Source: Echinarachnius parma
Lineage: Eukaryota > Echinodermata > Echinoidea > Clypeasteroida > Echinarachniidae
Assembly (NCBI GenBank): GCA_037951105.1
Contig: JBAMJV010003327.1
Span: forward strand, 62,001 to 126,000
Direction: 5' to 3'
Length of the DNA: 64,000 nt
How positions within the stretch are numbered: position 1 is the stretch's first letter; every line of letters begins with the position of its first letter. This document shows positions 3,332-64,000 of this stretch, in pieces. The notes below the pieces were generated by a model. The model made no database searches and was not told where the DNA came from. It saw nothing but the letters and a program-made list of their open reading frames with translations. A program made the position numbers and the translations under genes.

Positions 3332-3335
3332 TTAA

Positions 3336-3890: not shown

Positions 3891-3894
3891 TTAA

Positions 3895-8650: not shown

Positions 8651-8896
8651 ACATAGAAGCTCTCGGAGATTAAAATGTATAAGTATATTTTCACGAGAAT
8701 TAGACGAGGAATACAATTTACCGACCGAATTGTTCATTATAAATAGCTATAATTGTATTAATCTATTTGAAAATGATCAGATACACTACAATCTGAAACA
8801 AAAATATATCAGGTTTTGAGAAATGTATTTTAAAACTAATGCATGTCAATATTATCACATAAATAAAACTGACTATACAAGCATGTTAGTTATATA

Positions 8897-9466
8897 AACC
8901 GAACACAAAAAGTAACTACCCCCCTAAAAACAGCTCATAATTTTATAAGCAAGAATCGTTTCAAGATCTTGTTTCGCCAAAATATTCCTATGGTAGGTAG
9001 GAAAACAATATGTAAAATAAGAGGTAACCATTAATCCATGGTTGAGTAAGCACACAGTTAAGAGAAAATAGTAATATTTCAAAATTCGCAAAAGTAACAT
9101 TAATATTGCAGTTTATTGAGTATTGAGACATTTCTTATTGCACTGTTTTACAATTGCACTTAATGCATTTAACCACACGTGTCATACAAAAATCAAAATG
9201 GGTGGAATTTCAATCAGCATTGTTACATAAACCATAATTAATGCACAATGTACAGGCATGCGCAAGTTCTTGTGACTTTTGAAAGTGGGTCATTTTGTCT
9301 TTAATATGTGCTCATTCAGCCATGAAGTGATGGATATCTCTGATTTACACACATAATGTTTAGAACAACTGTAGAAATATTGTGGTAAAATTACAGTTTG
9401 AGACAATTATCAGTTATAAAATTGTAGGCATTTGTTTAGGGGGGTAGTTACTTATTATGTTCGGTT
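8897..9466. mobile_element. TA-target MITE inserted in tRNA unit B
   Basis: Starts AACCGAACACAAAAAGTAAC and ends in the near-complement GTTACTTATTATGTTCGGTT, with TACCCCCCTAAA continuing the inverted repeat (about 32 bp in all). Flanked by TA at 8895-8896 and 9467-9468. Unit C, without it, reads straight through from GCATGTTAG to GTTACC. TA duplication points to the Tc1/mariner group. No transposase. Confidence 0.75.
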
Positions 9467-9575
9467 TAGTTACCTGCGATATAATCACGACACAGACATA
9501 GTAACACTTGCCCTATACATGTAACAGGGCTGAGGAGTTAGACTGGTCGCCTAACAACTCCGTTAAAATACATAA

Positions 9576-9657
9576 GTACTCGTGGCCGAGCGGTTAAGGC
9601 GATAGACTAGAAATCTATTGGGGTCTCCCCGCGCAGGTTCGAATCCTGCCGAGTACG
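9576..9657 (+). tRNA. tRNA-Ser (anticodon AGA), copy 1
   Basis: 82-nt type II (long variable arm) tRNA. The acceptor GTACTCG pairs with CGAGTAC and G is the discriminator. The anticodon stem ATAGA/TCTAT closes loop CTAGAAA, so AGA (9609-9611) reads UCU serine codons. The variable arm is GGGG-TCT-CCCC. The A box is TGGCCGAGCGG and the B box GGTTCGAATCC. No CCA is encoded, as expected in animals. A T7 run follows at 9664. All 82 bases match the copy at 10969. Compared with the common animal tRNA-Ser(AGA), the acceptor and anticodon stems each appear to carry paired compensating changes (from memory of the family). Confidence 0.95.
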
Positions 9658-10968: not shown

Positions 10969-11050
10969 GTACTCGTGGCCGAGCGGTTAAGGCGATAGAC
11001 TAGAAATCTATTGGGGTCTCCCCGCGCAGGTTCGAATCCTGCCGAGTACG
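10969..11050 (+). tRNA. tRNA-Ser (anticodon AGA), copy 2
   Basis: Identical over all 82 nt to the copy at 9576, exactly 1393 bp upstream. AGA anticodon at 11002-11004, same internal A and B boxes. Its downstream flank resembles that of the truncated unit A (TTTCTTTCA, CAATTCTGTTTC), so units A and C keep the ancestral 3' flank while unit B lost it to a MITE. Perfect identity of the gene bodies against diverged flanks suggests recent gene conversion or strong constraint. Confidence 0.95.
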
Positions 11051-11810: not shown

Positions 11811-12348
11811 AGGCCTGGGTAGTTCAGTTTTGGTATAGAGGGCGCTGCACGAAATAATTTTTTGTGAGATAATGAAAAACTGAGTGTAAAATGTGAAAGA
11901 GCATACAATTTCAATGGCAGAATAAACTTTATTATTTTGATTAAAATCGGTTCAGAAACGGCTGAAATATCAATAAATATATCCAATCGGAATAAATCTG
12001 GGGTCCAGATGATATTTTTTTTAATGTAAAAAATGCTTACACTTTTTTCCAAAATTTTCAAAAGAGGTTTTGAAATAGTTGTTGATGATTTCTCTATTCA
12101 ATCATTATTTCAACAAAACATCACATGCATAATTTTGTATGAAAAATTGTTGAAACCAATGCTTTTTAAGAGAGCGCCCTCTTGTGTTTTAATGGCTCTT
12201 TTAAACAAAATGATAACTGGCTTTTTACTTAGTCGTTTGTATTTTTCTATACATTTCGAGCATGGTGGAGTTATAACTATTAGTTTGTAATGTTATTGTG
12301 CAGGTTTTGGTTAGTAAAGCTCAGCCTTACCAAAACTGTACTACCCCT
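11811..12348 (+). mobile_element. TTAA-2 MITE, complete copy
   Basis: Starts AGGCCTGGGTAGTTCAGTTT, a diverged left end, and ends CCAAAACTGTACTACCCCT before TTAA 12349-12352. It retains AGAGGGCGCT and the inverted GAGCGCCCTC. Its palindrome is ATCTGG-GGT-CCAGAT (11996-12010). Confidence 0.85.
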
Positions 12349-12591: not shown

Positions 12592-12595
12592 TTAA

Positions 12596-13124
12596 AGCGA
12601 TAGTTAAGTTTTGCTTTACAGGGCGCTTCAAAAAATAATTAATTTGTAAGGTAATGAAAAAGCAAGTGTAATATTTGTAAGAGCACGTGATTTTAAAGAT
12701 AAAACAAACTTTATTTGATCATAATCGGTTCAGAAACAACAGAAATAGCAAATGTGGGACCCACATTTATTCGAAAATTTCAGAAATAATTATATTAATA
12801 TAATGACTACAATTTTTCGAAAAAATACCTAATAGGTTGTTTAAATAGTTGCTGATGATCTCTCCATTGAATCAATATTCTAAATATCACGTTCACAATT
12901 TTTCATAAGATATGGTTTAAACCAATATGTTTTAAGAAAGCGCACTCTAGTGATTTAACGGCTGGTTAAAAAAAAAATGATAACCGACTCCTGACTTAGC
13001 CGTTTGGATGTTTTTTTTTCTACACTTCGGGCATTGTTGAGTTATGATTATTAGTTTGTTGTGATAAAGTGCCAATTTTGGTTACTAAAATTCAGTGTGA
13101 ACAGAACTGTACTATATAATCCCT
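12596..13124 (+). mobile_element. TTAA-2 MITE, diverged complete copy
   Basis: Flanked by TTAA 12592-12595 and 13125-13128. Starts AGCGATAGTTAAGTTTTGC and ends ACTATATAATCCCT. Its palindrome is AAATGTGGG-A-CCCACATTT (12750-12768), a different sequence from the other copies but still self-complementary. Confidence 0.8.
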
Positions 13125-13128
13125 TTAA

Positions 13129-14705
13129 ATACATTTGATTGCTTTCGTTTCTTACCGCATTGCTCGACTCTGGTATATTGTATTATGTACATAAGCTATA
13201 TAATCTATCAAATGTACATAAATATATCCATAAAGTTATGTTGTTGCAGACGTGGGCGATCGAAAGGGGTATCAACCACCCCCACGGCCGTGGAAATTAA
13301 TAATTATTTTGATTTGATTTGAATTGATAGATTAAACACATCTTAAACACAACAGAGAAAATAACTACTATAGTAACCAACAACCCTGGCTACGCAATTT
13401 ATATTGATAAACTTAATTTGAATTACATGTACTTGCAGCATGACTTAGGGTTATGTTTATTGACTCAAACTTTATAAATTGGAAACAAAGTTTGTCGAAC
13501 CGCGGTTCTAGACATTATTAGACTGTGATTATAGACGGACCTGGGGAATACGAACTGTTGTGTGATGTTTGTTTAAACGACAGTCATGTGTGTTATCTAT
13601 GTTTTATCCTGTCATTCAAAAGAGTAATGATAATACATGAGAGCTTGACATGAATTGTTTTAAGAAGACATTTGATTATCGTTCATATAATCATGTTCTT
13701 ATATTTTGGGCCATTTTTGGGGGGAGAATGTTAGAAGAAAGCTACACTAAAATATAAAAAATTTCCGGATTAACCGCAGATGGCGCTATTACCTTTTAAA
13801 CAGGGCGCGTTGATAGAAGTTTTTTTGTCGTGGTGCATTATCATGTTTAATATGCAATGCCCGTAAAAAGAAAACTCAAGCCGTCCCTGTGATGAACTAA
13901 CATTTTCATAAGGAAATATCTGACCGTGGATGGGTCGGTCATTCGGTCATCGAGGGTGGCTCAGTGGTATGTAGTGCACACTAGCTAGTCTAGTCTAGTT
14001 ACGAATGGTGAACCGCGAAAGAATTGTATTTCTGTGTGCAGCATTTCAAAGAGTGCCCTCTAGCATCTCCACGTATGACAATCTTTAAACAAAATTCGTA
14101 ATAATATAATATAGGTTTGAGTGGATCCTTAGACTGTTTTGTTGTTGTTTTGTTTTGCATTATCGATCTTCTATTCGTTTTTAAATAAGTAAATTATAAA
14201 TCAAATTGTTTTATTTTTTACTTTAAGAAACAAAAATTACACATGTATCTCTCTCTTTAATTCTATCAGCGCTATAATAAGAAATCAAAACAAGTATTCA
14301 TCTTATCTAAGAAGGAACTAAACTATTTGAGGTAAAAAACAATTGCTAAAACCGCATTGCGTGTCTTCAGGAGAAAAACAAATGTAATGACTTCTGCAGA
14401 TTTGTTTTATTTAATATATACCTGACAACACCTTGTAAATAAAAGACAAACAATTCGTTTCACTTTCAGATATTATGTGACATTTGTCAGCTATTGACAC
14501 AGATCTAGATACTCTTTTATAGATGAAATCTGTACTATTGTGCAATTCGCTTCCTTGTTGTTCTAAATGTACAATTCATCTATTCAAAATGAAACCATTT
14601 GCATAATTCTCCTACCATTCTCCCAGTATTTTAAATCGTTTACCCGGTATGTCATTTCTCTTTTTTACGAGAATAGCTGCAACATTTTCTGAAAATAAAA
14701 ATCAT
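13129..14705. other. Unassigned AT-rich sequence
   Basis: About 1.6 kb with no recognised gene, RNA or repeat family. Isolated words such as GATGGCGCTATT (13788) resemble parts of dispersed repeats but do not define an element. Confidence 0.4.
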
Positions 14706-14708
14706 TTT

Positions 14709-15472
14709 TGGGATCTATAGTAACATTTTCAAAATCCACAAAACTTCATTAACAATTTAGTGGTTCTCCCATCCCTTGTTGTATTTTGTATTACTAATAT
14801 TTATAGAAGCATGCAACAGGTTTTGTTTTCGAATTTCTCTTTCGTTAGACAGATATTTACGATTGAAGTGTTCAATGTGTTAACTATCCACTGGATAGTC
14901 ATAACTGTGTACAAGGTCAGTGCAATGAGTTAGCAAAATTATCACTTTGCATTTTCGCTCATTACTCGGCCATACCACATCCATTTAAAGGGATCTAGTA
15001 ACTTTGTTGAGATGTGCAAAAACTGATGAATGGTTGATGCAATGTATACTGTTGTTATCTCATATGTCCTCAGGGTATTGTGTGAAAATTTCAGGTCAAA
15101 TGGACAATGTATGGCCAAGTAATGAGCGAAAATGCAAAGTGATATTGGGTGATATTCACCAACTCACTGCATTCACTTTGTACAGGGATGAAAATCTCGC
15201 CCGGAGATTTTCTTATCTAAATACTTCAATCATACATATCTTTGTAATGAAAGGGAAATTTGAAAAACCGAAAGCTGTCCCATGATTTTATTGTTAATAC
15301 GAATACAACAAGGTATAAAGGAACCGCTAGAATTACAATTTTATTTTGAGGATTTGGACAATGTTACTAAGTCCCTTTAACGTGAATTTTGTCACATATC
15401 AGATCAAAAGATTACACATGATACCAACAATTCAACACTTTCTGCACATGCCAACAAAGTTACTAGATCCCT
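14709..15472 (-). mobile_element. TTAA-1 MITE split by another TTAA-1 copy
   Basis: Minus-orientation copy in two parts, about 14709-14994 and 15381-15472, ending before TTAA 15473-15476. The left terminus is eroded. Its hairpin ACTATCC-ACT-GGATAGT (14883-14899) is intact. The break falls at the internal TTAA that other copies keep as CATTTAACTTGAA. Confidence 0.85.
14999..15376 (+). mobile_element. TTAA-1 MITE nested in a TTAA-1 copy
   Basis: 378 bp plus-orientation copy flanked by TTAA 14995-14998 and 15377-15380, lying inside the opposite-orientation copy above. Central stem GAAAATCTC/GAGATTTTC (15190-15212). Confidence 0.9.
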
Positions 15473-16420: not shown

Positions 16421-17420
16421 CGAGCATGGTGGCTTATGCTAGGTTTACACCATGTCCCCGGCGGCCACGGCAGCCCCGTTTGCCCAAAACGTAGTGGGCC
16501 GTGAGATTTTGACAAATTTTTCCTCTGTATTCAAGTTTTGTTAGGTCTTGCCAAGTTTTCTCACGGTATATCACGGTCTACCACGGTATCCGTGACGGGC
16601 CGTGGGGGGAAGAGCCCCTTCCCCCCCACTGATGGTGCGTTTACACCATGTTCCTGGCGGCCACAGCAGCCCCGTTTCAGGCCACCGTGGACAAAACGGG
16701 ATGGACGTGAGACAACACGGGGGGACGGAATGGGCAAACGTGACAGGCCGCGATTGCCGTGGATGCCGGGCCAGATTTTTAAACTGTCAACAAATTTGCC
16801 ACGGCAGTCACGGTGCGGATGAGAAGCCTATCAGGCCAAAGTAAAACGGGGTGAACGCAACAAAACGTGACAGTACGTAATAGGCCGTAACAAAACTTGG
16901 AGGCTGTCCGTAGTAGGACGGGATAGGACCGTGAGATGTCGGGGAATGTCTTCCCGTCCTACTACGGACAGCCTCCAAGTTTTGTTACGGCCTGTCACGT
17001 TTTGTTGCGTTCACCCCGTTTTACTACAGCCTGCTAGGTTGCCGTGGCAAATTTGTTGACAGTTTAAAAATCTGACCCGGCATACACGGCAGTCATGTTT
17101 ACCCATTCCGTCCCCCTGCGTTGTCTCACGTCCATCCCGTTTTGTCCACGGTGGGCCTGAAACGGGGCTGCCGTGACCGCCGGGGACATGGTGTAAACCT
17201 AGCATTAGCGGTTACGAGTGTCCGCCTCATGCACGGGAGGTCCCGGGTTCGAACCCTGACCGGGTCATACCAACGACTTTTAAAATGGTACCTTGTGCCT
17301 TCTAGCCAGGCGCTCGGCGTTTATAGAATGGAGACGGGGCTAAGCACGCGGAGTTACCAGACGGCTGAATTTCACATTTACACATTGTTACGATTTGTCT
17401 ATTACAAGGACTGCACGTCC
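16421..17420 (+). mobile_element. tRNA-derived SINE interrupted by a foldback MITE
   Basis: The head is in two pieces: CGAGCATGGTGGC before the MITE and GCGGTTACGAGTGTCCGCCT after it. The B box is GGTTCGAACCC at about 17247-17257. Removing the MITE and one TTA copy leaves TGGCTTAGCGG, which fits the Pol III A-box consensus TRGYNNANNGG exactly. The body continues with GCCAGGCGCTCGGCGTTTA to about 17420. As it stands the split A box should be non-functional. Confidence 0.75.
16437..17204. mobile_element. PIF/Harbinger-like foldback MITE
   Basis: 768 bp, termini TGCTAGGTTTACACC and GGTGTAAACCTAGCA, flanked by TTA at 16434-16436 and 17205-17207; a TTA duplication is characteristic of PIF/Harbinger. 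The arms from about 16640 to 16975 and back to 17204 are nearly complementary. The left side also holds an extra partial copy of the terminus (TGGTGCGTTTACACC, 16633), so the left arm looks duplicated. GC-rich compared with surroundings. No transposase. Confidence 0.8.
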
Positions 17421-22656: not shown

Positions 22657-23579
22657 AGGGACTTTATAGTAACATTGTCCAAATCTTCAAAACTTACTTG
22701 GAACTCTAGTGGTTCTCTGACTCATACCTTATCATATTCATATTAACAACAAAAGCACTGGACAGTTTTCGGTTTTTCAAATTTCCATTTCGTTCAAAAG
22801 ATATTTACGATTGACGAGTTCAGGTGTACAAAGTAAGTACAATGATTAAGTACAATTGAATATCACTTTGCCTTTTTGCTCATATCTCAGCCCAAAATCA
22901 TCCAATTAAAGGGATAGTTGAGTTCTGGTAAGGAGAGTACAGTTTTGGTGAAACTGAATTTTAGTAACCAAAACCTGCATCATTACGTTACAAACTAATA
23001 GTTATAACTAGAAAGGAACACAAAATTACAAATGACGTAGTAAAGATCATGTTATCATTCAAAAAGAGCCGTTAAAACGTAAGAGGGCGCTCTCTAAACA
23101 CTCATCGGTTTCAACCATTTTGAATAAATTAGTGTGCATGTGATGCTTTGTTGAAATAGTGATTAGATAGAGAAATAATCAACAACTATTTAAATACCTA
23201 TTTTGTAACTTTTTGAAAAGAGGAAGCATTTTTTAAAAAATTTTTAACGGCTGGTTCAAAATTCTCTAATAAACCTGGGGCCCCAGGTTTATTACAAATT
23301 GTTATATTTATGGATATTTCAGCCGTCTCTGAACCGATTTTGATCAAACAAAGATGATTTTATTATTTAAATATTATGCTCTTTCAAATTTTACACTCAG
23401 TTTTTCATTACCTCACAAAAAAAAAAAGTAGTCTAGCGCCCTCTCTACCAAAACTCAACTATCCCTTTAAGGTGAAATTTTCACACATTACTTAGTGGAC
23501 ATATCAGATCACTCCAATGCACATTTTATTAATCACTCATCACTTTTTTTACACTTGCCAACAATGTTACTTGATCACT
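22657..23579 (-). mobile_element. TTAA-1 MITE split by a TTAA-2 MITE
   Basis: The minus-orientation TTAA-1 copy lies between TTAA 22653-22656 and 23580-23583, in two parts (22657-22905 and 23471-23579). The break is at the same internal TTAA that is occupied in the 14709-15472 copy and empty at 19155. Its 3' part resumes GGTGAAATTTTCACACATTA as expected for the family. Confidence 0.9.
22910..23466 (-). mobile_element. TTAA-2 MITE nested in TTAA-1
   Basis: 557 bp in minus orientation between TTAA 22906-22909 and 23467-23470. A perfect 28-base palindrome centred on GGGGCCCC lies at 23267-23294. Confidence 0.9.
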
Positions 23580-36611: not shown

Positions 36612-37016
36612 ATAGGTTTTCCCGCTCAATTTTGCACTTTTTTCAATCGAATTCATTTCGGGTCATTCGAATTCGCGCGTTGCCGCGTAATCGTTGGTAT
36701 CGGTCTTCCAAATTCCGAATAAGTGCATGCGAATTCATGCATACGCACACGCTTTCGTGAATAAACACAGAAGTTCATTTATGGGCATTCGAATTCGCGA
36801 ATGTGCAGCCAACTGTCAACGGCCTTTCGCGAATTCGAATGACCATTGATAAAAAGGTATGCACTTTGTGCAAATTCACTTGCTCCTACGTGATTTTGAA
36901 CGACTATTTACGAATTCGAATGCTGCTTTGGTACGGCGATCGCAAATCGCGCGAATTCGTTTGCTCCTATTATCAATTCGATTGACACAATCGCGAAATT
37001 GAGCGGGAAAACCTAT
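36612..37016. mobile_element. Compact foldback element with ~21-bp CGAATTCG subrepeats
   Basis: 405 bp. Starts ATAGGTTTTCCCGCTCAATT and ends in its complement, a perfect 21-bp terminal inverted repeat. The arms are made of degenerate units of about 20-21 bp such as TCATTCGAATTCGCGCGTTG and CATGCGAATTCATGCATACG, inverted in the right half. Shares its terminal sequence style with the large composite at 54-62 kb. No coding capacity. Confidence 0.75.
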
Positions 37017-37599: not shown

Positions 37600-37603
37600 T
37601 TAA

Positions 37604-38238
37604 AGGGGCCCTGCAACCCAAATGCATGTTGACCTCTGTTCATCTGTATTAGTGTACACATTCAATATTTGTAAACGGTTTGACCCAAATATGTTTTGTA
37701 TATTTTTAAACATTTTATCATTTATTTGTCTTCATGTTGCTAAGCCCCACCTCCTAAAAAACCCTCCAGAGCAAATACTATTGTTGACCTGCAGTGACAT
37801 CATTTGTCAATCACTGGTCAGCTACCATAAGATTAACAAAAGATGAAAGTACAAAAAGAACATCCACATAAAAGCATGCCCTGCATACCTCCATGCAATA
37901 GCTTAGACAGTGCTTTTCTTCTGACATAGCAACAGCTATTGTAATTGAAGTTGTGTGAGTTGGTATTCTATTCAACCATGTGATGCTATTGTGATTAGGC
38001 TAATCACAATAGCATGGTAGCTGACCAGTGATTGACAAATGATGTCACTGCAGGTCAACAATAGAATTTGCTCTGGAGGGATTTTTAGGAGGTGGGGCTT
38101 AGCAACATGAAGACAAATAAATGATAAAATGTTTAAAAATATACAAAACATATTTGGGTCAAACCGTTTACAAATATTGAATGTGTACACTAATACAGAT
38201 GAACAGAGGTCAACATGCATTTGGGCTGCAGGGCCCCT
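37604..38238. mobile_element. TTAA-4 element with ~220-bp inverted repeats
   Basis: 635 bp between TTAA 37600-37603 and 38239-38242. Left arm (about 37604-37826) and right arm (about 38016-38238) are almost perfectly complementary. Both begin AGGGGCCCTGCA outward-in. The arms encode the same open frame on opposite strands simply because they are mirror copies. A perfect 16-bp hairpin with a 1-nt loop (37983-38015) adjoins the right arm. Confidence 0.85.
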
Positions 38239-38242
38239 TTAA

Positions 38243-41230: not shown

Positions 41231-43007
41231 CATTACCGTTTCATAGGACTTGTGGTCTTTTTATGTAAATAAAACAAACGGGGAAACTTATCCCGTGCGA
41301 CCCCGTGTCACATGTTATTACAAGGCCCTGGGATCTTGTAACAAAATCTTCATAACCAGCGGCCAATAGAATCGTGTCCGCCGGGGCGTGCCATACCAGG
41401 ACAACTACAGGGTGTGTCAAAAACAGAGAAACAAAACATAGAATGATCATTTATGAAACGGACTATGTTCCCGTTTATCTCCATACGATTGTATTATCAT
41501 TCGAATGTGATCTTAACCCTTGCCTACGGGAACCTGGTCTAAATAAATAAATACATGAGGGCTGCGGCTATTCAAGCGTAGTGCTTGACGTTTATCAATA
41601 TTACATGTTGCCGATTTTAACTTTTCGATCGTTACCAGCTATTAATGTAGTACTAGTATTTTATTCGTTTTACATCAATCAAGTACGATTCCAGATAACA
41701 TTTTTTGGAACACCCTTCACTTTCCACCACTCTCTTTCTAAAGTTTCAACACGGAGTGAAGAGTTTGTAAACTAAAATATCAAGTTCGGGTAAATTTGGA
41801 CCAACAGTTTAGACCAGAGGAAACGTCAGAAGAGTGGGAAGGTGTAAAGTATGTCAAGGCCAGGGCCGGTGAAGAAAAGTTTTAAAGGCCCTCTCGGACT
41901 TTTGAAGTCTGAAAATCGAATTCAATTAAAAACGCTGCCGTGCTTAGAATTCATTTCAACCCAATCGTATAGAATGAAGACGAGGTCTTTGCACATATTA
42001 AACCATGTAGATCAATTTGAATTTAGTTATTTAATGATATGACTAAGAAATGTATTTGTATCGTTGAATGCCCCTTTAAGTTTTTTTGTAGAAAATAAAC
42101 TCAATTTACTTTCTTTAAACTTCAAGTTCAAGGATTCTTAAAGTACGGTATTGATACAAATGGCTGACATTGAAAGTGCGTTCTGTCGCTTTCAATAATA
42201 TTCTGAATATCAGATCAAATAATAGGGCTGAAGAGAACATAATTGACAGCCTGAACAATGCGCGAAGACACCATCAGGATTCAGGACCATGGGCGTATAT
42301 GGGCAAATTTTTGCATGCCAAGGGGCTGAGGTTCTTCTCGTGTCTCACCTAAAAGCCAAATGCTCGTTTGGGGAAAATTATCGAAAATAACTGTATTGGC
42401 CAAACTAATTGATTAGTATTGATAAATAGCATAAAAGGGGCGTGTGTGAAACAATCCGAACCTTAGTATCGTTAAGTGCAGAAATATCAGTTAAAACGTT
42501 TATGAAAACCTCTGACATTGAGCCTAAATTCACCGTCAGTTTGGCCCGTCTACGCTGGCCACATCTATACGCTCGTTTGTGCGATACGCTCGTGCGAAAC
42601 CATGTGCCGCATTTTCCAAAGGATAGCTCGCAGCGCACGAGGGTGCATATCAACATACAACCGTCGGCGATATCGATTTGCAGAAAATCAGTTTCATAAG
42701 TTTCTAAATACATCAACTAGTAGGCGGTTTCCAGGCAAATTTGTATAATCCCCTTTTAGTAAAAAATATATTCTTTCACATGATTGGTAATAAGAGCGTA
42801 CATTTCATTTTGTTTGTGTGTGGGGCGTTTCCCACTACTGGCATTTGCCTTTAAGGGGAAACAAACACAGGAACCGAACAAACAGACGGACGGGAAAAAC
42901 AAAAAGTCCTCGATCACCAGTTACCCGAGAATGATATGAATATATGATTTTTGCTTGACTATGAAATAACGTCATGCCTTTGTCCAAAATAAAAATAAAA
43001 CTATCCC
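41231..43007. other. Unassigned sequence, one small TTAA-bounded candidate
   Basis: A possible 190-bp TTAA-bounded element lies at 41886-42075 (weak termini). 42500-42700 is CpG-richer. No gene recognised. Confidence 0.35.
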
Positions 43008-43185
43008 GAATATTACATGATCTTGCCCGAATATGGTATGAGTTTGTCCAAATATGTCATGATTTTGCCCGAATATGACATGTTTTTGTCCGTATATGAC
43101 ATGATTTTGCCCGAATATGACATAGTTTGTCTGAATATGACATGGTTTTGCCCGAATCTGGTATGCCATTTGTCCAGATATTGCC
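43008..43185 (+). repeat. Regular 21-bp tandem array, about 8.5 units
   Basis: Units of nearly constant 21 bp (one 20-bp unit) begin GAATAT and end TTTTGCCC or TTTGTCC, with ATGACATG in the middle. Because 21 is a multiple of three the minus strand stays open and reads as a seven-residue peptide repeat. Related single words occur at 17737 and 36240. Confidence 0.9.
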
Positions 43186-52279: not shown

Positions 52280-52721
52280 ATATACAAAAATACAAACGAC
52301 TAAGTAAAAAGCCTGTTATCATTCAAAAAGCGCCATTAAAACACAAGAGGGCGCTCTCTAATAAGGCATTGGTTTCAACCATTTTTCATACAAAATTATG
52401 CATGTGATATTTTGTCGAAATAATGATTAAATAGCGAGATCATCAACAACTATTTAAAAACCGCTTTTGAAAATTTTGGAAAAAGTGTAAGCATTTTTTA
52501 TATTTTTTCAAAAAATCATCACATTTATTTGGGGCCCAAATAAATACGATCGGATATATTTATTGATATTTCAGCCATTTCTAAACCGATTTTGAGCAAA
52601 TAAAGTTTATTCTGCCATCAAAATGGCATGTTCTTTCAAATTCGACACTCAGTTTGTCATTACCTCACGAATAAATTGTGTTGTGCAGCAGCGCCCTCTC
52701 TACCAAAACTGAACTACCCCT
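52280..52721 (-). mobile_element. TTAA-2 MITE, truncated at one end
   Basis: Minus orientation; its true left end (CTACCAAAACTGAACTACCCC) adjoins TTAA 52722-52725, while the other end is lost near 52280. Palindrome ATTTATTTGGG-G-CCCAAATAAAT at 52523-52545. Confidence 0.85.
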
Positions 52722-52725
52722 TTAA

Positions 52726-53543
52726 TGTGAGTACGTTCATATGGTATATTAATTCATTAGTCCTTCCATCTTTAAGATTAGTGTGACCCCCAATAAGGTA
52801 GCTACGGTCAGTCACTGGTCACTTCTCTTTCTTAGAAGGAGGTATGTGAGTGACACACTTTCCAACAGGGTCACAACCTTCATCGACCACTGGTAGTAAA
52901 CAAACTCCATTGCTGGCCTAATAGTAATTATACATTTTAGTTGAGATCATGTACCTGAACCAAATGTAAGTGGCCACAGTTTTCTTATATATTTGATTGT
53001 ACCATTGATTGCCTCACCTACTGATTTTGTAGTTAACTTTAATAAAGTAGTGTGTTCACTAATTCATATGGGTATGTAGGTATACCCGAACTTGTATTAT
53101 GATTTAATAGTTGTATATTTATTCTCCTCGTTGTCCGTTATGCCAGTGATGAATGTGGATGTTGGTTTGTGTGAGAAATTTACCAGTCAACTGAAACAGA
53201 CCAATTGTCTGGACCTTATAGTTCTTCAAGTTTATTCCCCCGCACTGAGTGGAGAATAGTATGGGTTACATATCCATTCGAGCGGAAATGAATAATCTCT
53301 ATACCGCCTGAACTATCAGTTCAAAGGGGGTCAGCGGGCAAAGTAAAACTATGTAAACTATTTTTTATTTATATGTATTTTATATTTTCTTTTCTATTTC
53401 TATATGGACATAAAAATGATAAAATTTTTGAGGTATTCCATTATTCCATTATATAGAAATGGTGATATGGTGCATTCCTTTATTGACTCTATGTTTTGTT
53501 TAAAGATAAGTTGCATCATTGTATTCTTTATGAATCAACTGAA
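52726..53543. other. Unassigned AT-rich sequence
   Basis: No gene or repeat family recognised. Confidence 0.4.
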
Positions 53544-53551
53544 AAGCACAG

Positions 53552-53684
53552 CAGGCTAGGCGCCGATTCGTTCGGAAAACACAATGCATTGGGCATGTTG
53601 GGGGCGATCATTGTTTGTAAACAATGATCTGCCCCCCCCCCCCCCCCCAATGCATTGTGTTTTCGGAACAAATCGGCGCGCCTG
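53552..53684. mobile_element. 133-bp hAT-like foldback with 7/8 target duplication
   Basis: Ends CAGGCTAGGCGCCGATTCG and AATCGGCGCGCCTG; AAGCACAG (53544-53551) and AAGCACAT (53685-53692) match at 7 of 8 positions. Almost the entire element folds back: the arms share GAAAACACAATGCATTGG, and a nested GATCATTGTTT/AAACAATGATC stem sits in the centre. Confidence 0.8.
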
Positions 53685-55052
53685 AAGCACATGTATTAGA
53701 TCGCATTCGTATAATTGTTGTGTCACATTTGAGCAGAAATAAATAACCTAAATAACTATGTTAAATTCCGTTTTTTTAATTTGATATTTTTTAATTTTCT
53801 ATCTGATATGAGAATAATGACATTTTTTTGAGGTAATCTTGAACACCTAAAATTAATTTAGGGCCTACCATTTGGCCGATATGTAGAATATAATTCTGCT
53901 TGATTAATACTTTATAGCAAAATTAAGGTTCTCATGGTTATATATGAGTGTAAGGACGGCATACCCAGACCCCAAAAGTCAAATTGAAAATTTCACGAAC
54001 TGACACACACCAGTCGTATATCAGATTGCGCATGCGCACATGCGTATGCACTATATGCGCGGTACGGCTCGTGAAAGCATCACGAAGAATTTCACGAAGT
54101 GACACAAACCCCTACCATCGTATCTAGTGTCATATATTGTTGTATTCAATCTTAGGATCTTTAATTTAGACGTAGTCAAAAATTCAGCCAATTTGAAGAA
54201 TTGAATTCTGCTCTATCCAACGGCACGAACTTAAAAAGTCCAACTGGGAATTTCACGAAGTGACACATCGCATGCCAGATCGCGCGTTCGATGGTTTCAC
54301 GAAGTGACACACATTTGTGTAGCCTCTCTGTGCTTTCATCTTTTATCTGTCAGATTATTATAGGTTTTCCCGGCCAATTTCATACTTTTCTCACCCAAAT
54401 TCACACAAGGGTCATTCAAATTCACGCATTTCTAGCATCCGAATTCGTTAACTGGCACCCCATTTTAAATTGAGAGCAATCAAAATCACTGTACGTGCAT
54501 GCAATTTCATATCCGGGCACAGATTTTCACGTTCGTGCGTTCAAATTCACACGTTCATGACGTTCAGATGACCGTGTGAATTTCAATGCACGAACGTAAA
54601 ATTCTGTGTCCGAAAATGAAATTGAATGAACGCGTAGTGATTTTTATTGCTTTAAATTGAAAAAGGGTGCAAGTAAACGAAATTGGATGCAAGGATTGTG
54701 AAATTGAATGACCGAATTCGCCTATGAGCAAGAAACGCGTGAATTTGAATGACTCTTGTGTGAAATTGGCCGGAAAAACATATTTCAGACACGCTATTTT
54801 CTCATGCAATTTCATATTAGCAGCATTCAATTTCACCAAATCCGCGTTTGGATCGACACATCGTCATTCAAATTCGTTTTTAGTCATTCATAATATTAAG
54901 TAACGGAGCAACCAATTTAAAACTAGCGTCATTCCATTGTAAGCAATGGGCGCTCATTTTCGTCAATGTTCATTCAAATTCATCTCTAGCAGTCTCCGGT
55001 CTCATTTCGCGCATATGGGCAAACAAGTTCATTATAATTTCATTCAAATTAA

Positions 55053-55605
55053 TGGGATAGTTGAGTTTTGGTAGAGAGGGCGCTAGACTACTTTTTTTTT
55101 TGTGAGGTAATGAAAAACTGAGTGTAAAATTTGAAAGAGCATAATATTTAAATAATAAAATCATCTTTGTTTGATCAAAATCGGTTCAGAGACGGCTGAA
55201 TATCCATAAATATAACAATTTGTAATAAACCTGGGGCCCCAGGTTTATTAGAAAATTTTGAACCAGCCGTTAAAAATTCAAAAAAATGCTTCCTCTTTTC
55301 AAAAAGTTAAAAAATAGGTATTTAAATAGTTGTTGGTTATTTCTCTATCTAATCACTATCTCGAAAAAGCATCACATGCACAATATTTTATTCAAAATGG
55401 TTAAAACCGATGAGTGTTTAGAGAGCGCCCTCTTAAGTTTTAACGGCTCTTTTTTAATGATAACATGATCTTTACTACGTCATTTGTAATTTTGTGTTCC
55501 TTTCTAGTTATAACTATTAGTTTGTAATGTAATGATGCAGGTTTTGGTTACTAAAATTCTGTTTCACCAAAACTGTACTTTCCTTACCAGAACTCAACTA
55601 TCCCT
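55053..55605 (+). mobile_element. TTAA-2 MITE inside composite copy A
   Basis: Between TTAA 55049-55052 and 55606-55609; starts TGGGATAGTTGAGTTTTGG. Perfect 28-base palindrome at 55222-55249, identical to the one at 23267-23294. Confidence 0.9.
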
Positions 55606-55663
55606 TTAAACATGTACAGTGGAAATGTAATGGATATGTAACATCATGGTATATGGTACAGTT

Positions 55664-56516
55664 CAAGGGGGTCGATTTCTTCTCATGGTTGGGGGGGATG
55701 ATCAGGGGGTTTGACCCAATGACGATGCGGAGCATCGTCCACGAGCCGCGAAGCGGCGAGGCGATTTTTTGTGTGGCTATTTTGCTAAGGGGGGGGGGGG
55801 GTTTGACCCAATGACGATGCGGAGCATCGTCCACGAGCCGCGTAGCGGCGAGGCGATTTTTTTTGTGTGTGGCTATTTTGCTAAGGGGGGGGGGGGGGGG
55901 TTGACCCAATGACGATACGGATACAGTGTGGGTCTGGACACAATGATGGCGTTTTTCTATGCACATCACATTTTCACTTGGCAGCCCAAGGGGGGGTGGG
56001 GGGTTTAAACCCATGATGGCGTTTGTCTATGCACATCACATTTTCACTTGGCAGCCCAAGGGGGGTTTAAAACCCCTAACCCCCCCCCCCCCCCCCCCCG
56101 TAGATCCGCGCCTGGGGGGGGGGGGGGGTGGGTGTGGGAGGGGGGTGTCCCCCCTCCCACGGTAGGAGGCTTTTGCATTTTGGGGCTTGAAATTGTGCAA
56201 TCTGGAGCATACCTAAGGCATCAATTTCACGTTTTATAAACTTGTTTCTGAGTTACCGTATTATAGATAAACACAATTAATGAAATCAAGTTTGCAGAAA
56301 ACCAAAGGGCGGATCGCACTTCTTGTTTTGCTTATGGTAGCCTCTTCCACAATTACATGCGCCAGTATACTTTTTTTTTTGTTTTTTTGTTTACCCTCCC
56401 AAATATTGGGGGGGATGATAATACAGGCCATCCCCCCACCTCAAATATTGGGTGGGGGGGGGGGGGGTATATCCCCCCATCCCCCCCCCCCCCCCCCCCC
56501 GTGATCGACGCCCCTG
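55664..56516. mobile_element. 853-bp hAT-like element inside composite copy A
   Basis: Ends CAAGGGGGTCGATTTC and GTGATCGACGCCCCTG, with GTACAGTT at 55656-55663 repeated exactly at 56517-56524. Inside: tandem units with GACCCAATGACGATGCGG (55709, 55804, third partial near 55902), two units containing ATGGCGTTTNTCTATGCACA and CACTTGGCAGCCCAAGG, and long G then C runs. A CCGCGCCTGGGG motif near 56106 may mark an older nested end. No transposase. Confidence 0.85.
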
Positions 56517-57639
56517 GTACAGTTAATTCGTGCATGGGCAATCAATAAACAAAACATGATGGAAATAAAGATACAGATTATGAAGAAAAAAAGATCATGA
56601 TAAAATAAAGATCAGATGATGACAAACAAGAAAATGTTATGAAAATAAAGATCAAAATGATGAACTAAAGATCGCATGATAATAAAGTAAAGACATGATG
56701 AATGAATAGAGGTAAAACAAAAAGAAAGCACCATGTGAAATGAATATGACATTTTTTGAACATTGACAAAAAATATAAACAAAATGTGACTGATGAATAT
56801 CGAAAAGTGAAGATTAAATGTTGACAAGATTATCTGAAAAGGGAAAGATATAACACGATGAAATTGTCGAGACTATGTAAGGAAAAGAACGGTGATGATG
56901 ATATAAAAGAGAAATCAAAGTCACCGTATGTGATGTATGTGTGTGCGTATGTATATGGTTGTATACATGCATGTAAATATGGTTATGTGTGAGTACGTAT
57001 GGAAGTTGTTTGAGTAACTTAAATCGAATGAAAATTTCTGGAAATTTATCACCCATTAACGAAATTTAATGCACAAACGAGCGATTGCCAAGCTTATCGT
57101 ATTAAATTGAATGCCCATTTGTTGAAAATAGCACCCAATGATGAAATCGAATGCCCATTTGCGAATTTGAAGTTCGCGATTTGAAATTTGAGTGCCCATA
57201 TACGAATATGCATGCTTGGAATATGAATTTGAATGACCAAAGCGACTCCTCCACGAAATTGAATGCACATAAACGAATTTGGGCGCGTAATGTTGGAAAT
57301 TGGCCGGGAAAACCGGGGGAAAACCCATAATACAATAAGTTATTCATCCATAATTCGCTGTTTAAAAATTCCGAAATCTTTAATTTCGTTTTATTCAAAA
57401 TGTGGTTTCGTGCTTACGCGAACACATGTCTCACTTCGTGAAATGCGCGAAATGTGTTTTTTTTAAAGGTAATCTTTAACTCCATTGTGAAAAGTGCGAG
57501 CTGCGGTTTTTTTTATTTTACATTATATGGTTCCTTCAGTTGGTTTTCATTTGTGTGAACTGAAACTGAAATGAATAGACTGAAAAGAAAAATTTCTCCA
57601 ATTTGTACAACTATTCAACAACATCCGGATAAATCGTCG

Positions 57640-58075
57640 TGCATTTCACGAAGTGACACATACCCCGAAAATCCTGTACAAATCCGTATTTAAGTTCTAG
57701 TCACATTTAGCATCTATATGGACTACGGTCTACCATTTAGCCAATTTTCAGATTTGAATTCTGCTTAATTACTGAAATAATTAGATTTACCTAGCGGCAC
57801 GAGCTCAAAAAAGTCGAACCGTGAATTTCACGAACCGGCACACGCGTTAGCGCGCATGCGCGAACATCGCGCGTGCCCGTTCGTGAAATTTCGACTCGAG
57901 CGCCGCTGAGTTTCACGAAGTGACACATACCCCCAAAATCGTATCTAATGTCATATATTGAGTTTTATTCATGTTGAACACCTAAAATTAATTTATTGCC
58001 TACCATTTGGCCGATTTGTAGAATTTAATTCTGCTTAATTAATACTTTATAGCAAAATTAAGGTTATAAATTTAG
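57640..58075 (+). repeat. Flank units of the composite element (between copies A and B)
   Basis: Two diverged units carry CACGAAGTGACACATACCCC, a TCTACCATTTAGCCAATTTT or TACCATTTGGCCGATTTG block, AATTCTGCTTAATTA and GGCACGAGCTCAAAAAAGTC. Within them 57850-57900 is an island of alternating CG-rich sequence. Confidence 0.7.
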
Positions 58076-58083
58076 TTAAAAAA

Positions 58084-58741
58084 CCACTTCGAAAGCCAAA
58101 TTGCTTATCATACAAAATATCATGTCTATCAAGGTATTGCATAAGTCTATTATACATAATTTTCTTAAAAGTCTTTGCAAATACTGATAATAATTAAATT
58201 GGTCTATAGTGTGACATTGTAGTTTTACTTCCCTTCTTAAATACTGGTATTACCTTGGAAACTTTGAGTTTATCTGGAAATACTCCACAATCCAATGAAA
58301 AATTAAAAATATTGCACAAAAGTTGTAATATAAAACAAATTAATTTCTTGAATACAGCAACATTAATATCATCAATCATGGGCTCTTGTTTAATTTCAAG
58401 GTATTAACAACTTCTAAAATATCAACAAATGTTATAGGAGAAACAAAAATCGATTTTTTTTTTTTTTTTTTCTTTTTTCATTCATAAAATATTTAAAATC
58501 ATCATTAACAATTGGCTTATTTTCGACCAATTTGGTTCCTATTGCACTTTTATTAAAATCATCAACAATTTCCTGTTCATTTTCAATAACAACATAATTT
58601 TCTATTAATTGTTTACATTGTTCTTTTGCATTATATTTATTAATTACTTCATTTATTACTTTCCGAGTCTTATTCATATCACCATACACATTTGTGAATT
58701 TATTTACATAAAAATCCCTTTTACTATTTTTAACTTGTGAA
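58084..58741 (-). pseudogene. LINE fragment with 8-bp direct repeats (RT N-terminal part)
   Basis: On the minus strand: MNKTRKVINEVINKYNAKEQ in the linker before RT, SKVIPVFKKGS then HYRPI (RT block 1), one TAA, SVFAKTFKKIMYNRL and LYDKQFGFRSG (RT block 2), where it stops. TTAAAAAA flanks both sides (58076-58083, 58742-58749). It lacks endonuclease, the catalytic FADD box and the LINE 3' end. Jockey/CR1-type. Interrupts a flank unit of the composite element (AAAATTAAGGTTATAAATT on the left, GGCACGAACTTAAAAAGTCC on the right). Confidence 0.8.
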
Positions 58742-58749
58742 TTAAAAAA

Positions 58750-59095
58750 GGCACGAACTTAAAAAGTCCAACTGGGAATTTCACGAAGTGACACATCGCA
58801 TGCCAGATCGCGCGTTCGATGATTTCACGAAGTGACACACATTTGTGTAGCCTCTCTGTGCTTTCATCTTTTATCTGTCAGATTATTATAGGTTTTCCCG
58901 GCCAATTTCATACTTTTCTCACCCAAATTCACACAAGGGTCATTCAAATTCACGCAATTCTTGCTCATGGGCGAATTCGGTCATTCAATTTCACAATTCT
59001 AGCATCCGAATTTGTTAACTGGCACCCCATTTTCAATTTAGAGCAATCAAATTCACTATACGTGCATGCAATTTCATTTCAGGGCACATATTTTG
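58750..59095 (+). mobile_element. Left flank and left arm of composite copy B
   Basis: Nearly identical to 54231-54520: GGCACGAACTTAAAAAGTCC, two TTTCACGAAGTGACACA words, TTTTATCTGTCAGATTATTA and the terminus ATAGGTTTTCCCGGCCAATT at 58888. It holds one extra subrepeat stretch (CAATTCTTGCTCATGGGCG) absent at the same place in A. Confidence 0.85.
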
Positions 59096-59516
59096 GTTGA
59101 TATTCACTTGGTCTAATACCACTTGGTCTAATCATCAGTTCGTCTAACTCCACTTCGGCTAAACCCATTTGGTCTAATCATCACTAGGTCTAATGCCCAT
59201 TTAGGCAATTGCCGTTTCGTCTAATCACCAAATGGGCCAATTGTCACTTCGTCTACTTTTTTTTTCTCGTTTCGTCTATTATCACTTCGTCTAATACCAG
59301 TTCGTCTAATTCTCAGTTAGGCTACTCTTCACTTGGTCTATATGCAATTCGTCTAATTACCGTTTGGTTTATAACCATTTGGTCTATTACCATTTCGTAT
59401 AATACCAATAGGTCTATTTTCCACTTGGTCTAAAAGCAGTTTGTCTAATGCCATTTCGTCTAAACACTATTTCGGCTAATGACCATTTAGTCTAATTCTC
59501 ATTTGGTCTAACGATC
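59096..59516 (+). repeat. 15-16-bp degenerate tandem array, about 26 units
   Basis: Units follow CAYTTSGTCTAATNC with lengths of mostly 15 or 16, for example CACTTGGTCTAATAC, CAGTTCGTCTAACTC, CATTTGGTCTATTAC, CATTTCGTATAATAC. One unit is expanded by a T9 run near 59258-59266. It starts directly where the copy B left arm stops matching copy A. Confidence 0.9.
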
Positions 59517-60960
59517 GCGCACACTGACCTCTGTGATGGCCACCGCCTGCATACCGTATGAAAGATTCCATACATGCCATAGGGCTGTAATTATAGCTCT
59601 ATGGATATTTAGCCACAGCGGTTTCACTAGACGGTTTCACTAGGTTTTTATACTTACTTGTTGTAAATTTAACACAAAATTCAGCAATGTCTCTGCAGTA
59701 GATTATACATATATGCTTACCGTGGTGACTGTTTAATTGTTTATTTTTTGATCGGTACCGCATTCCATGCGGTTCCCTGCAGCAAAAGTTTTGTTGTTCA
59801 TGCATGAACACTGATTATTTTGAATCATATATAAATTGTGCCCTATATTTTGTAACTCTTTATAACCGTTTTTTATTCTATTTTTTAATTTTTTTTAAAT
59901 TTAATTACTTGCACATTTGTTGAAAACTTGTCTCAATATACTTAGTAGGTGAACAGCTGTTTTTGTCTATACTGACTTATGCAAATTTTTGATGGGTTTC
60001 TGCTCTTCACGCGTTTCCCTGTATCGTGCATGAACGTTGATTACCCTGCATCACAGAATGAACTGGGTAGTATTGATGTGTTGCCATGAATGTAGTTCGA
60101 TGGCTGTTGTAGGGTTGAATGATCTTGGGACTCTCCATAAAATTAAAATAAAATAATACAATATATATATATTTTTTTTCTTCTCTTTCTTTTTATGGAG
60201 AGTGTTAGGAGTGTTCAATTTTCTAGTGGCCATTGAATTATATTCATGGCATTATATAATTTTGCATGCATCTTTTTATAATTGTTTTTGTTTTTGATAA
60301 TACTCTAAATTATAGATGCTAAGTAATGCTTGATACTGCATTTGAAAATTGTATTGCTTTTGGTTAATCGTATATACTTATTTACTTGTTTATTTATTAC
60401 TGTTGGTTTTTTTCCTCTTTTTCCTTTGATTAGGTCTAAATGTTATTCTTATGTACATTTGAAATTTGATTGACTTTTGAAAGTTTAATCTCCATATCAA
60501 TTATTTGCTTGATATCTCTTAAGCACTAAGTAGTAAGAAAAAAGAAAAGAGGAAAAAACTCTACAAATTATATTCTTCATCCATATTCTTAATCAATATG
60601 TTTGGTTTATTATCGTGTATCCCCAAACCCTTTTCCCCACAGTTATTAAGAACTTTAGAGTGTTTTTATTATTAATAAATCTCCTTATTCAACCTGTTTA
60701 TTGGGAACTCGCAGGTGGCGCAGTCTCTTGAATGTCAAGTGGCTTGTGTTGTTTGACCTGCGGTTGCTCATTGAAGCCTACGAAGATCTTTGTTATGTTA
60801 ATATCGAGTCTGTGTGTGCGCGTCGTTCTATTTCCTTTCACTTCTGTTTCTGCTTATCCAATACTCGTGCTCACCCTTTGCTACTCTTTAGGTATAAATT
60901 CCTATGCCTTTTTTCATGTCATTTTTGCTCTCTCTGTGTGTCTTTTTTAAATATCGCATG
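59517..60960. other. Interior of composite copy B, unassigned
   Basis: About 1.4 kb of AT-rich sequence with no recognised gene; not obviously shared with copy A. Frames at 60701-60961 have no recognisable domain. Confidence 0.4.
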
Positions 60961-62217
60961 ATGATAAAGTAAAATCTAAACAAATGTGACTGATGAATAT
61001 CGAAAAGTGAAGATTAAATGTTGACCAGATATCTGAAAAGGGAAAGATATAACACGATGAAATTGTCGAGACTATGTAAGGAAAAGAACGGTGATGATGA
61101 TATAATTATATATAAGATAAATCAAAGTCATCGTATGCCATGTATTGTGTGTCTGTATACATGTATATTGTATGTATACATGCATGTAAATATGGCTATG
61201 TGTGAGTACGTATGGATGTTGTTTGAGTAACTTAAATCGAATGAACATTTCTGGATATTTGTCACCCATTTAGGAAATTTAATGCACAAACGAGCGATTG
61301 TCAAGCTTATCGTATTAAATTGAATGCCCATTTGTCGAAAATAGCACCCAATGATGAAATCGAATGCCCATTTCCGAATTTGAAGTTCGCTATTTGACAT
61401 TTGAGTGCCCATATACGAATATGCATGCTCGGAATATGAATTTGAATGACCAAAGAGACTCCTCCACGGCAATTGTGCGAAATAAGGGAGTTCGTAGTTA
61501 GCCCATGGAGCAGTATGACGTCATCGGGTTTTCGGAAGATTGTACCAACATTAAGGCTTTACGCGTACGTTTACGGCACAGCCTGTGACGCACGCATTTA
61601 AAGTACAGAGCTCTATGCAGAATTTCCGCGTGCGTGCGTGAATTCTCTTTGTGTTTCGTTACGTTTGAAAGACCTGACCCCAAAAAAACTCACCTTAATC
61701 CTTAAAATATATCAAATTGAATAAAAATAACCATTCATTTTAATTTTCAAACTTGAAGCCGGCTAAATAATTGTTTTAGAATCAAAATCTGACATCTTTG
61801 CCCGTTTTCAACACTAAAATGGAAACAGTATACACAAATCTACGTATGGGGCCTTTTCGATTTTAACAAAAAGCCCCGATACGAACGTTGGCATTTTGGT
61901 TAAAATCCGAAAATAAATAGAAAAAATTAATTTAAAAAAATCAGTCTTATGTATATGAGATGTCCATTATGACTAATTCAGAAAAACATTTATGACTTCG
62001 AGCCAAATTTCCCATGAAAACTCGTTCCAAATGTGACAATAATTGTACGAAGGTCTATGTGACAACGGGCAATATCGATGTTTTTGGTACAGTGAATTTG
62101 GCGCATGCGCAGTTTGTAACTACGAACTCCCTTATTGAATGCACATACACGTATTTGGGCGCGTAATGTTGGAAATTGGCCGGGAAAACCGGGGGAAAAC
62201 CGGGGGAAAACCCCATA
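60961..62217. mobile_element. Right half of composite copy B
   Basis: Matches 56760-57323 of copy A closely (ATGTGACTGATGAATATCGA, AAGGGAAAGATATAACACGA, GTGAGTACGTATGGA, then the inverted ~21-bp subrepeats) apart from a 648-bp insertion at 61485-62132. It ends AAATTGGCCGGGAAAACC followed by two GGGGGAAAACC repeats, one more than in A. Confidence 0.85.
61485..62132. mobile_element. TA-target MITE inserted in composite copy B
   Basis: Perfect 16-bp terminal inverted repeat AGGGAGTTCGTAGTTA, flanked by TA at 61483-61484 and 62133-62134. Copy A is the empty site (CTCCACGAAATTGAATGCAC). AT-rich interior with CpG-rich ends; no transposase. Confidence 0.85.
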
Positions 62218-62745
62218 GTACAATAAGTTATTCATCCCAAATTCGCTGTTTTATTCAAAATGTGGTTTTGTGCTTACGCGGACAAATGTGTCACTTCGTG
62301 ACATGCGCGAAGAAATTTGTCTTTTTTTAAGGTAATCTTTAACTCCATTGAGAAAAGTGCGAGCTGCGGTTTTTTTTATTTTACATTACATGGTTCCTTC
62401 AGTTGGTTTTCATTTGTGTGAAGTTATAAATAAACTGAAATTAATAGACTGAAAAGAAACAAATTCTCCAATGAGCACTACATCCGGAGAAATGTGAGGT
62501 TTTCTTTTGAGTGGAAATATTTAAATATTCAGGAGCTTGTCCAAAATCGGTCAGTCACTGTCAATCCGGCGAAGCAGCAGGACAGGGAGAAAGGAGCCTT
62601 GTGTGTGTAGCAGAGAAACATTGTAAGTACGCAAAGTATGTTTTATTTTATTTTTTACTACATCTAGCATTAAATGAAAAATTAGCGAAGAAAATAGGAT
62701 TTCTTCAGGTTTCGAAACCGAGACCTCCGGATTGCCAGACCGATA
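62218..62745. other. Right outer flank of composite copy B, then unassigned sequence
   Basis: 62218-62470 matches 57324-57600 (AATTCGCTGTT, CACTTCGTGA, GAAAAGTGCGAGCTGCGG, CATGGTTCCTTCAGTTGG). After 62490 nothing is recognised until the next element. Confidence 0.6.
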
Positions 62746-63025: not shown

Positions 63026-63604
63026 TATGTCAGTTTCCTATATGCCGTTTGAAATAACATCTAGCATTTGTTAGAAAATGTATTTATAACGTATCTAATT
63101 TATTTATATTTATGCATTACTATTTAGTTTATAATTATGATGATATTTAAGTAATTGTTTTGTTGTTGTAGTGTTACTTTAATTATACAGAAATAAACAT
63201 ATTGAATGGAACAATATTTTGTGAATCATTTCTCCCAGAGTGTTTTTTGGAACAAACATAGAAGGGACAATAATTATTACCATATTTTTTTGTTTGCAAC
63301 CCCGTTTTCCCATGACCAGTTTAATCACGATTCCATGACTCTTCCACATTTCTTAGCGCATTTCCTGAGATTGCACTCATGTCTTCTAGTTACTGTTTTT
63401 ACCTTACTCTAAGTTTAATTTTGTTTTTCTGTTAATAATGTGATTTTTGTTTAATTTGTTTTATAGTGATTTTGTGCATTATGGACTTGTCGATAACAGC
63501 TAGACGGCTGATTTGAGTTTTGATTTCATTTTTTTTAATAAAACAAACACACACTTAATATAAATCAATATGTCAATCGACAAGGGTATCATACTTGTCA
63601 TTAT
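63026..63604. other. Unassigned AT-rich sequence
   Basis: No gene or repeat recognised. Confidence 0.4.
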
Positions 63605-63608
63605 TTAA

Positions 63609-64000
63609 AGGGACAGTACAGTTTTGGTTTAGAAGGCGCTTCAAGAAATATATTTGTTGGGAGGTAATGAAAAACTAAGTGTAATGTTTGAAGAAAAACA
63701 AATTTAAAGACAAAATAAACTGTGTTAGATCACAATTGGTTCGGACACACTTGAAATATTCATAAATATATCCGCTGGAATAAATATTGGGGCCCAACAT
63801 TTATTCAATAATAAATTCCTACACATTTTTAAAAATATCCAAAAATAAATGGCTTTGAAATTGTTTTTTATGATCTCTCTTTTGAATAATTATTTAAACC
63901 AAATGTAACATTCACATTTTGTATAACAAAAAATGTTGAACTTTTCAGTTGTCTGAATGGCGCCCTTTTGTGTAAACGATTGTTTTTTAATGAACACAAC
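63609..64000 (+). mobile_element. TTAA-2 MITE, cut by the window end
   Basis: After TTAA 63605-63608: AGGGACAGTACAGTTTTGG, AGAAGGCGCT, and palindrome arms AATAAAT-A-TTGGG and CCCAA-C-ATTTATT at 63779-63805. Continues past the window. Confidence 0.85.

Follow-up and report, generated by a model that had tools for sequence, protein, structure and literature searches.

The inverted arms of the Drosophila FB element are built of short direct repeats, arranged in a hierarchy of 10-, 20- and 31-bp units, and the element carries a 9-bp target duplication. In the sea urchin Strongylocentrotus purpuratus the TU elements are likewise foldbacks, with short direct repeats (a unit of about 15 bp) in the outer arm, heterogeneous middles of dispersed repeats and an 8-bp duplication. 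Autonomous copies of the Mutator/FB group carry a MuDR/NOF-type transposase, and an 8-bp target duplication is also a mark of the P element. For Galileo, PMC3688188 reports from footprinting and gel shifts that sequences inside the long terminal inverted repeats (TIRs), tandem repeats included, bind the THAP domain of the transposase. To this company we add a foldback locus from the echinoid Echinarachnius parma, found in a stretch of 64,000 nucleotides of contig JBAMJV010003327.1 (assembly GCA_037951105.1, positions 62,001 to 126,000 of the forward strand), hereafter the window, in whose own numbering all coordinates are given. A preliminary description, made from the letters alone, had listed two copies of a multi-kilobase foldback-type element, A (54360-57323) and B (58888-62217). 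Our best reading is that the anatomy is that of a real short foldback family, and that the large double element is one duplicated patchwork locus. With a probability of about 70%, we propose that the window holds a family of short (~0.4 kb), apparently non-coding foldback miniature inverted-repeat transposable elements (MITEs) that moved in trans, one locus of which was duplicated in tandem.

A 0.4-kb element of two converging arms

The complete element is short, not multi-kilobase. Two copies, here called C and A', carry a terminus at each end and consist of two arms, each of about ten units, that converge: a cap (ATAGGTTTTCCCG) is followed by ~10 units of 20/21 bp (GGGCATTCAAATTCATaaat), and the whole is then reversed, with no middle. 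Element C (36612-37016, 405 bp; self inverted match 64% over 415 columns) went unlisted in the preliminary description and supplies one more copy with the same termini within the window, amid unrelated flanks whose sole match to the rest of the window is a G run. Its left end reads ATAGGTTTTCCCGCTCAATTTT and its right end, reversed, ATAGGTTTTCCCGCTCAATTTC, and ATAGGTTTTCCCGCTCAATTT is read at both. Under a unit model made from A only, the left arm of C (36612-36814, plus strand; ~10 units of 20/21 bp) forms a 10-unit chain of 81.4 bits and the right arm (36815-37016, minus strand; 9 units) a 9-unit chain of 77.0 bits, while the highest-scoring chain outside the family, among the top nine on each strand, has 15.3 bits; the same listing holds 19.3 bits in the arm fragment of A and 15.5 bits in the right arm of B. 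Element A' (54360-54783, 424 bp; self inverted match 71% over 449 columns) stands complete inside the former copy A. Its left arm of 9 units (54360-54565, plus strand) had been taken for the left arm of A, and its right arm of 10 units (54566-54783, minus strand), inverted and with a terminus of its own, had been overlooked; both are delimited by the unit model and by arm alignments. As single-strand DNA the two elements fold with z = -10.2 (C) and z = -14.8 (A'), each against 100 shuffles. Long TIRs composed of short direct subrepeats and able to fold back place the family in the foldback-type class, and C and A', being short, apparently non-coding and bounded by TIRs, have the build of MITEs. 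The foldback architecture with subrepeated arms that was first proposed thus holds for A' and C, and not for the multi-kilobase A and B as elements; the large element A (54360-57323) was set aside as a single unit, since a complete A' occupies its left end.

Both the termini and the arms of degenerate 20/21-bp units occur far beyond chance. A 17-bp terminal probe, allowing at most 3 mismatches, finds seven sites in the 64-kb window, where shuffled sequence would give 0.31; five of them are in A and B (54365+, 54762-, 57296-, 58893+ and 62172-) and two in C. The termini are in that sense shared, as had been claimed; the exact 20-bp terminus (ATAGGTTTTCCCGGCCAATT) stands on the two left ends, and a clean CCTAT is found at the right end of neither A nor B. 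In six of seven regions (two of which overlap), the autocorrelation at a lag of 20, 21 or 41 bp rises above the 95% level for the lag 1-60 maximum, the single region without significance being 54784-55042. A 20-bp unit model fits 78 units in eight arm segments (consensus GGGCATTCAAATTCATAAAT) for a total of 937 bits, compared with 175-292 bits on 20 dinucleotide shuffles refitted from the same seed; the seed itself was a consensus taken from the arms, fitting ran for 15 rounds on the real data and for 8 on the shuffles, and the B arms within the set are near-duplicates of the A arms. The earlier claim of arms made of degenerate ~20-22-bp repeats is upheld on both counts, and the unit model and the chains agree with it that units are plus-oriented on the left and minus-oriented on the right. 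Where units had been described as centred on AATTC or GAATTTG words, the periodic units are real and the better description is GGGCATTCAAATTCATaaat, with a mean spacing of 20.47 bp (over 20, 21 and halved 41 spacings in five arms: A left, A' right, C left, C right and A right). The best-kept positions are a C at 4, a C at 8 and TTC at 12-14, and the last four lie near background. Successive spacings are 20 or 21 bp in 63 of 70 cases and 41 bp in two more, a count that leans toward these values because the fit penalised all others. In six of six end-bearing arms parsed, the first two units begin at offsets of 8 and 29 relative to the terminus, and the third at 49-50, the A right arm having been shifted by +3 into the common register.

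Such regularity might be had without any transposon, from a 20-bp minisatellite made palindromic by inverted duplication and spread by local duplication only. The tandem duplication of the locus, some unit-length indels, the amplified 11-mer at the right ends of A and B and the want of a target duplication, all treated below, would agree with this, but the same cap lies at a fixed distance from the first units, at both ends, in two elements ~17 kb apart with unrelated flanks, and we regard the minisatellite as very improbable. A run of 39 bp, close to two units, is present in the B left arm and the A' right arm and absent from the A left arm, and the A' right arm is without one 21-bp unit found in the left arms of A and B; across the three closest arm pairs, three of the four indel runs of at least 5 bp amount to one or two units (39, 20 and 21 bp, the other being 5). 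Outside the right terminus, GGGGGAAAACC 11-mers number one in A and two in B. Taken together, the unit-length indels and the difference in 11-mer count mean that arms and ends seem to change in length by repeat-unit steps.

One patchwork locus, probably duplicated in tandem

The common flanks and right half of A and B, noted in the preliminary description, are confirmed by segment comparison, and it is on the flanks that the number of copies turns. The left flank of A (54219-54359, plus strand) is duplicated as 58747-58887 with 139/141 positions identical, its right flank (57324-57602, plus strand) as 62217-62472 with 229/246 identical and 5 gap runs, and an outer block of the duplication (53838-53930, plus strand) is repeated at 57973-58065 with 87/93 identical. 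Parts of the element compare between A and B at 159/168, 222/235, 226/238 and 52/54, and the divergence of flank and element is alike, at 93-99% identity in seven of eight segments. Because the flanks are shared at about element-level divergence, we read A and B as one locus duplicated in tandem; from two separate insertions, common flanks would be surprising. The comparison supports B as a probable co-duplicate of A, the duplicated locus covering 53.8-62.5 kb, and what had been presented as the surroundings of an element would belong to the duplication, with A and B its tandem copies. The interiors (54528-56769 in A and 59095-60970 in B) have no mutual match and both hold other repeats. With flanks and element similarly diverged, interiors unmatched and A' complete inside A, the claim of two copies of a multi-kilobase element is not supported.

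The features within the locus support both A and B having been broken up by unrelated repeats. To the right of A' lies a decayed arm fragment without terminus (54794-55048, plus strand; nhmmer E 1.9e-9 and 1.5e-6), at whose right end stands an unrelated MITE with TTAA at both ends (55049-55609, plus strand; near-identical copies at 3332-3894 and 22906-23476, 95-96% identity); the middle of A also holds G/C-rich tandem repeats, and its long, terminus-bearing right arm (57018-57314, minus strand) was parsed into 13 units with one 30-bp step. The left arm of B (58888-59094, plus strand; a 10-unit chain) is the counterpart of the A left arm and has no mate adjoining. Beyond it, in the middle of B, a 15-bp-period array (CACTTGGTCTAATAC; 59104-59511, plus strand) runs in a single orientation, its inverted words ATTAGACC, TTAGACCAA and TTAGACGAA having no exact match anywhere in the window; in its period it evokes the 15-bp units of TU. 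The right arm of B comprises an inner part (61231-61468, minus strand; the segment with 226/238 identical to that of A) and an outer end with terminus (62134-62187, minus strand), split by an unrelated MITE-like insertion with inverted ends ATAAGGGAGTTCGTAGTTA (61482-62135), which overlaps the first two bases of the outer end and is not present at the corresponding place in A.

A patchwork of this kind invites comparison with a TU-like modular foldback of 3-4 kb, in which the outer arms of A and of B would belong together around swappable middles of dispersed repeats. Each of the two does possess terminus-bearing left and right arms, the middles do differ and consist in part of dispersed repeats, and TU elements are modular likewise. 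However, the A left arm is closer to its neighbour, the A' right arm (158/219 columns identical), than to the distant right arm at 57018-57314 (136/222), C forms a whole element in 405 bp with nothing between its arms, the outer frames are without a target duplication, and A and B look like co-duplicates and so count once. We consider the modular element unlikely and retain the short family, the mate of the distant right arm being uncertain.

Around both foldback copies runs a local repeat with TTTCACGAAGTGACACA motifs (53838-54311, 57641-58065 and 58747-58839). Eleven of the twelve TTTCACGAAGTGACACA sites in the window fall within 53991-62303, with 0.19 expected for the whole window, and the repeat recurs in places at ~270-310 bp spacing; it may have been the substrate of the tandem duplication. 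Between the duplicated blocks, an AT-rich segment (58066-58746) has no counterpart in the first copy, and a frame on its minus strand, with VFKKG...YRPI, is reminiscent of a long interspersed nuclear element (LINE) reverse transcriptase; Pfam gave no such match.

Target duplications, coding capacity and unit divergence

Several observations weigh against a mobile family of 0.4-kb elements. A consistent target duplication, proposed earlier as a check, was found in none of four frames (C, A', outer A and outer B): in a scan of 5-12 bp with at most one mismatch and ends shifted from -3 to +13, nothing rose above chance. Of 300 random flank pairs, 270 scored at least as high as the best for C, 99 as the best for A', 188 as that for outer A and 82 as that for outer B. 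Such a duplication might be masked by decay or in chimeric copies, and its absence is not decisive because Galileo has chimeric copies with non-matching 7-bp flanks (PMC3573991). Nor was a transposase found: 26 open frames of the window, 25 of them distinct, were compared with Pfam and no family reached the cut-off (21 of the 25 belong to the 65 frames of at least 85 amino acids that pass an entropy filter, and 4 are shorter). Among them, the ten open frames over arms and flanks gave no Pfam match at cut-off, with shorter frames in C left out, and one frame gave no match to PDB sequences. The 64 kb have yielded no more than two complete copies whose flanks are unrelated, and no empty site. The eighth segment of the A/B comparison, the tail of the duplication (57603-57640 vs 62473-62500), is only 19/27 identical. 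When the 15 arm pairs are all taken together, no more than 7 of the 17 indel runs of at least 5 bp equal one or two units, the more distant of these alignments being less trustworthy. Finally, words exceed spacers in similarity in 15 of 15 arm pairs, but aligning non-matching units favours such a result, and among six selected pairs the contrast reaches p < 0.05 in three, or in one without CpG/TpG/CpA sites.

The Fisher p values for these six pairs (in brackets, without CpG/TpG/CpA sites) are 0.003 (0.002) for A left with A' right, where the aligner shifted units against each other, 0.001 (0.79) for A left with C left, 0.02 (0.31) for C left with C right, 0.07 (0.58) for A left with B left, 0.10 (0.13) for B left with A' right and 0.74 (1) for A right with B right. 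On so mixed a result no claim of selection on the words is made.

Searches further afield returned little. Viral contigs gave 0 matches both for the terminus and for the unit-pair pattern, and bacterial and archaeal contigs gave 41 single matches for the terminus; these are read as chance because the arm model, which matched 37 of the 41 contigs at E <=10, did so with no match longer than 60 bases or above 14.5 bits. Rfam at gathering scores found two transfer RNAs (tRNAs) only; two tRNA-Ser (AGA) genes lie at 9576-9657 and 10969-11050, ~1.4 kb apart.

The window is rich in other repeats. The TTAA-ended MITE family (TTAAAGGGATAGTTGAGTTYTGGTA) that supplied the insertion in A has seven copies or fragments, the other six 67-96% identical to 55049-55609, with diverged relatives at 11817-12342, 12592-13113, 52284-52730 and 63580-63805; its ends suggest piggyBac- or Kolobok-like mobilisation. 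Foldback-like stretches are abundant, other long self-inverted ones lying at 37600-38242 (84%), 16626-17211 (78%), 14697-15390 (65%) and 8888-9475 (64%), and at 53560-53679 there is a 120-bp palindrome, 79% self-inverted, with an internal C run and GCGCCGATTYGTTC termini. A 21-bp tandem array of 7.3 copies (CCCGAATATGACATGATTTTG; 43005-43157) was rejected as a fourth copy of the foldback element: no cap is visible, it falls outside the self-inverted stretches and the arm model does not list it.

Proposed end recognition and comparison with known systems

If the short elements moved in trans, a transposase encoded elsewhere would cut at the caps and would bind the repeated words, spaced by nearly two turns of the helix, many weak sites summing to recognition of an end, while unequal exchange or slippage between words would alter the number of units. 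The words are, on this model, candidate transposase-binding sites in series, for which the THAP-binding repeated sites in the long TIRs of Galileo (PMC3688188) speak as a precedent. With units spaced 20.47 bp apart and 10.5 bp to the turn, the helical drift is ~18 degrees per unit and ~165 degrees over nine steps, so the earlier suggestion that each word lies on the same DNA face is fair for neighbouring units and is eroded by the drift from one unit to the next. A bolder version would have an undescribed foldback family whose entire body is a pair of converging ladders, each with about ten transposase-binding words spaced 20.5 bp apart, the gain and loss of whole units tuning the strength of an end and binding being cooperative along a helical array rather than confined to one or two sites per end; this we offer tentatively, and think rather unlikely. 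Should the family be borne out across the genome, its all-arm copies of 0.4 kb would form a simple natural series for the number of subterminal sites that a transposase needs, a question raised by the Galileo work on extra sites inside long TIRs. The locus also carries two warnings: a count of foldback copies within a single region may include co-duplicates, and what seems to be one arm of a large element can conceal a short one that is complete.

Set beside TU as generally described, the locus differs in its 20.47-bp arm spacing and in the lack of a detected duplication; an outer arm of ~15-bp direct repeats was not encountered, the 15-bp array of B having no exact inverted words in the window. 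Drosophila FB differs in its unit hierarchy, in contrast to the single 20/21-bp unit here, and in its duplication, none having been found here. The 8-10 bp target duplication of Mutator/FB did not appear in the scan of four frames, nor did the 7-8 bp duplication of the P superfamily (7 bp in Galileo, PMC3573991). With no target duplication found, assignment to Mutator/FB or P is blocked, and the family can be placed in none of Mutator/FB, P/Galileo and TU.

It may nonetheless already sit in a curated repeat library, as TU, Mutator/FB, P-like or another family, which would be compatible with our preferred short foldback MITEs. Several superfamilies include foldbacks whose TIRs contain repeats (PMC4079207, PMC3169594, PMC3573991), and we give this a real, if minority, chance. 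The Tetris foldback of Drosophila virilis is alike in being non-coding and modular, with tandem repeats in its TIRs, rearranged forms and no autonomous copy found, and differs in its ~220-bp internal repeats, 8-10 bp duplications and variable middle (PMC4079207). Galileo, of the P superfamily, has tandem repeats that are far longer (~210 bp in one subfamily), 7-bp duplications and a known transposase, and shares with the present family long, internally repetitive TIRs, two-TIR copies and change in repeat number (PMC3688188, PMC3573991). Tm1, a Mutator/Foldback element of root-knot nematodes, differs in its units of 13-15 bp (20/21 bp here), in its mostly 9-bp target duplications (8-10 bp in 45/53 complete copies, compared with none detected here) and in that some elements encode a putative transposase, none being seen here among the scanned frames (PMC3169594). 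Like the E. parma element, Tm1 has a short outer motif followed by composite TIRs of many short tandem units, and includes MITE-like members (PMC3169594). The family may be an uncatalogued member of a kind of mobile DNA that is already known.

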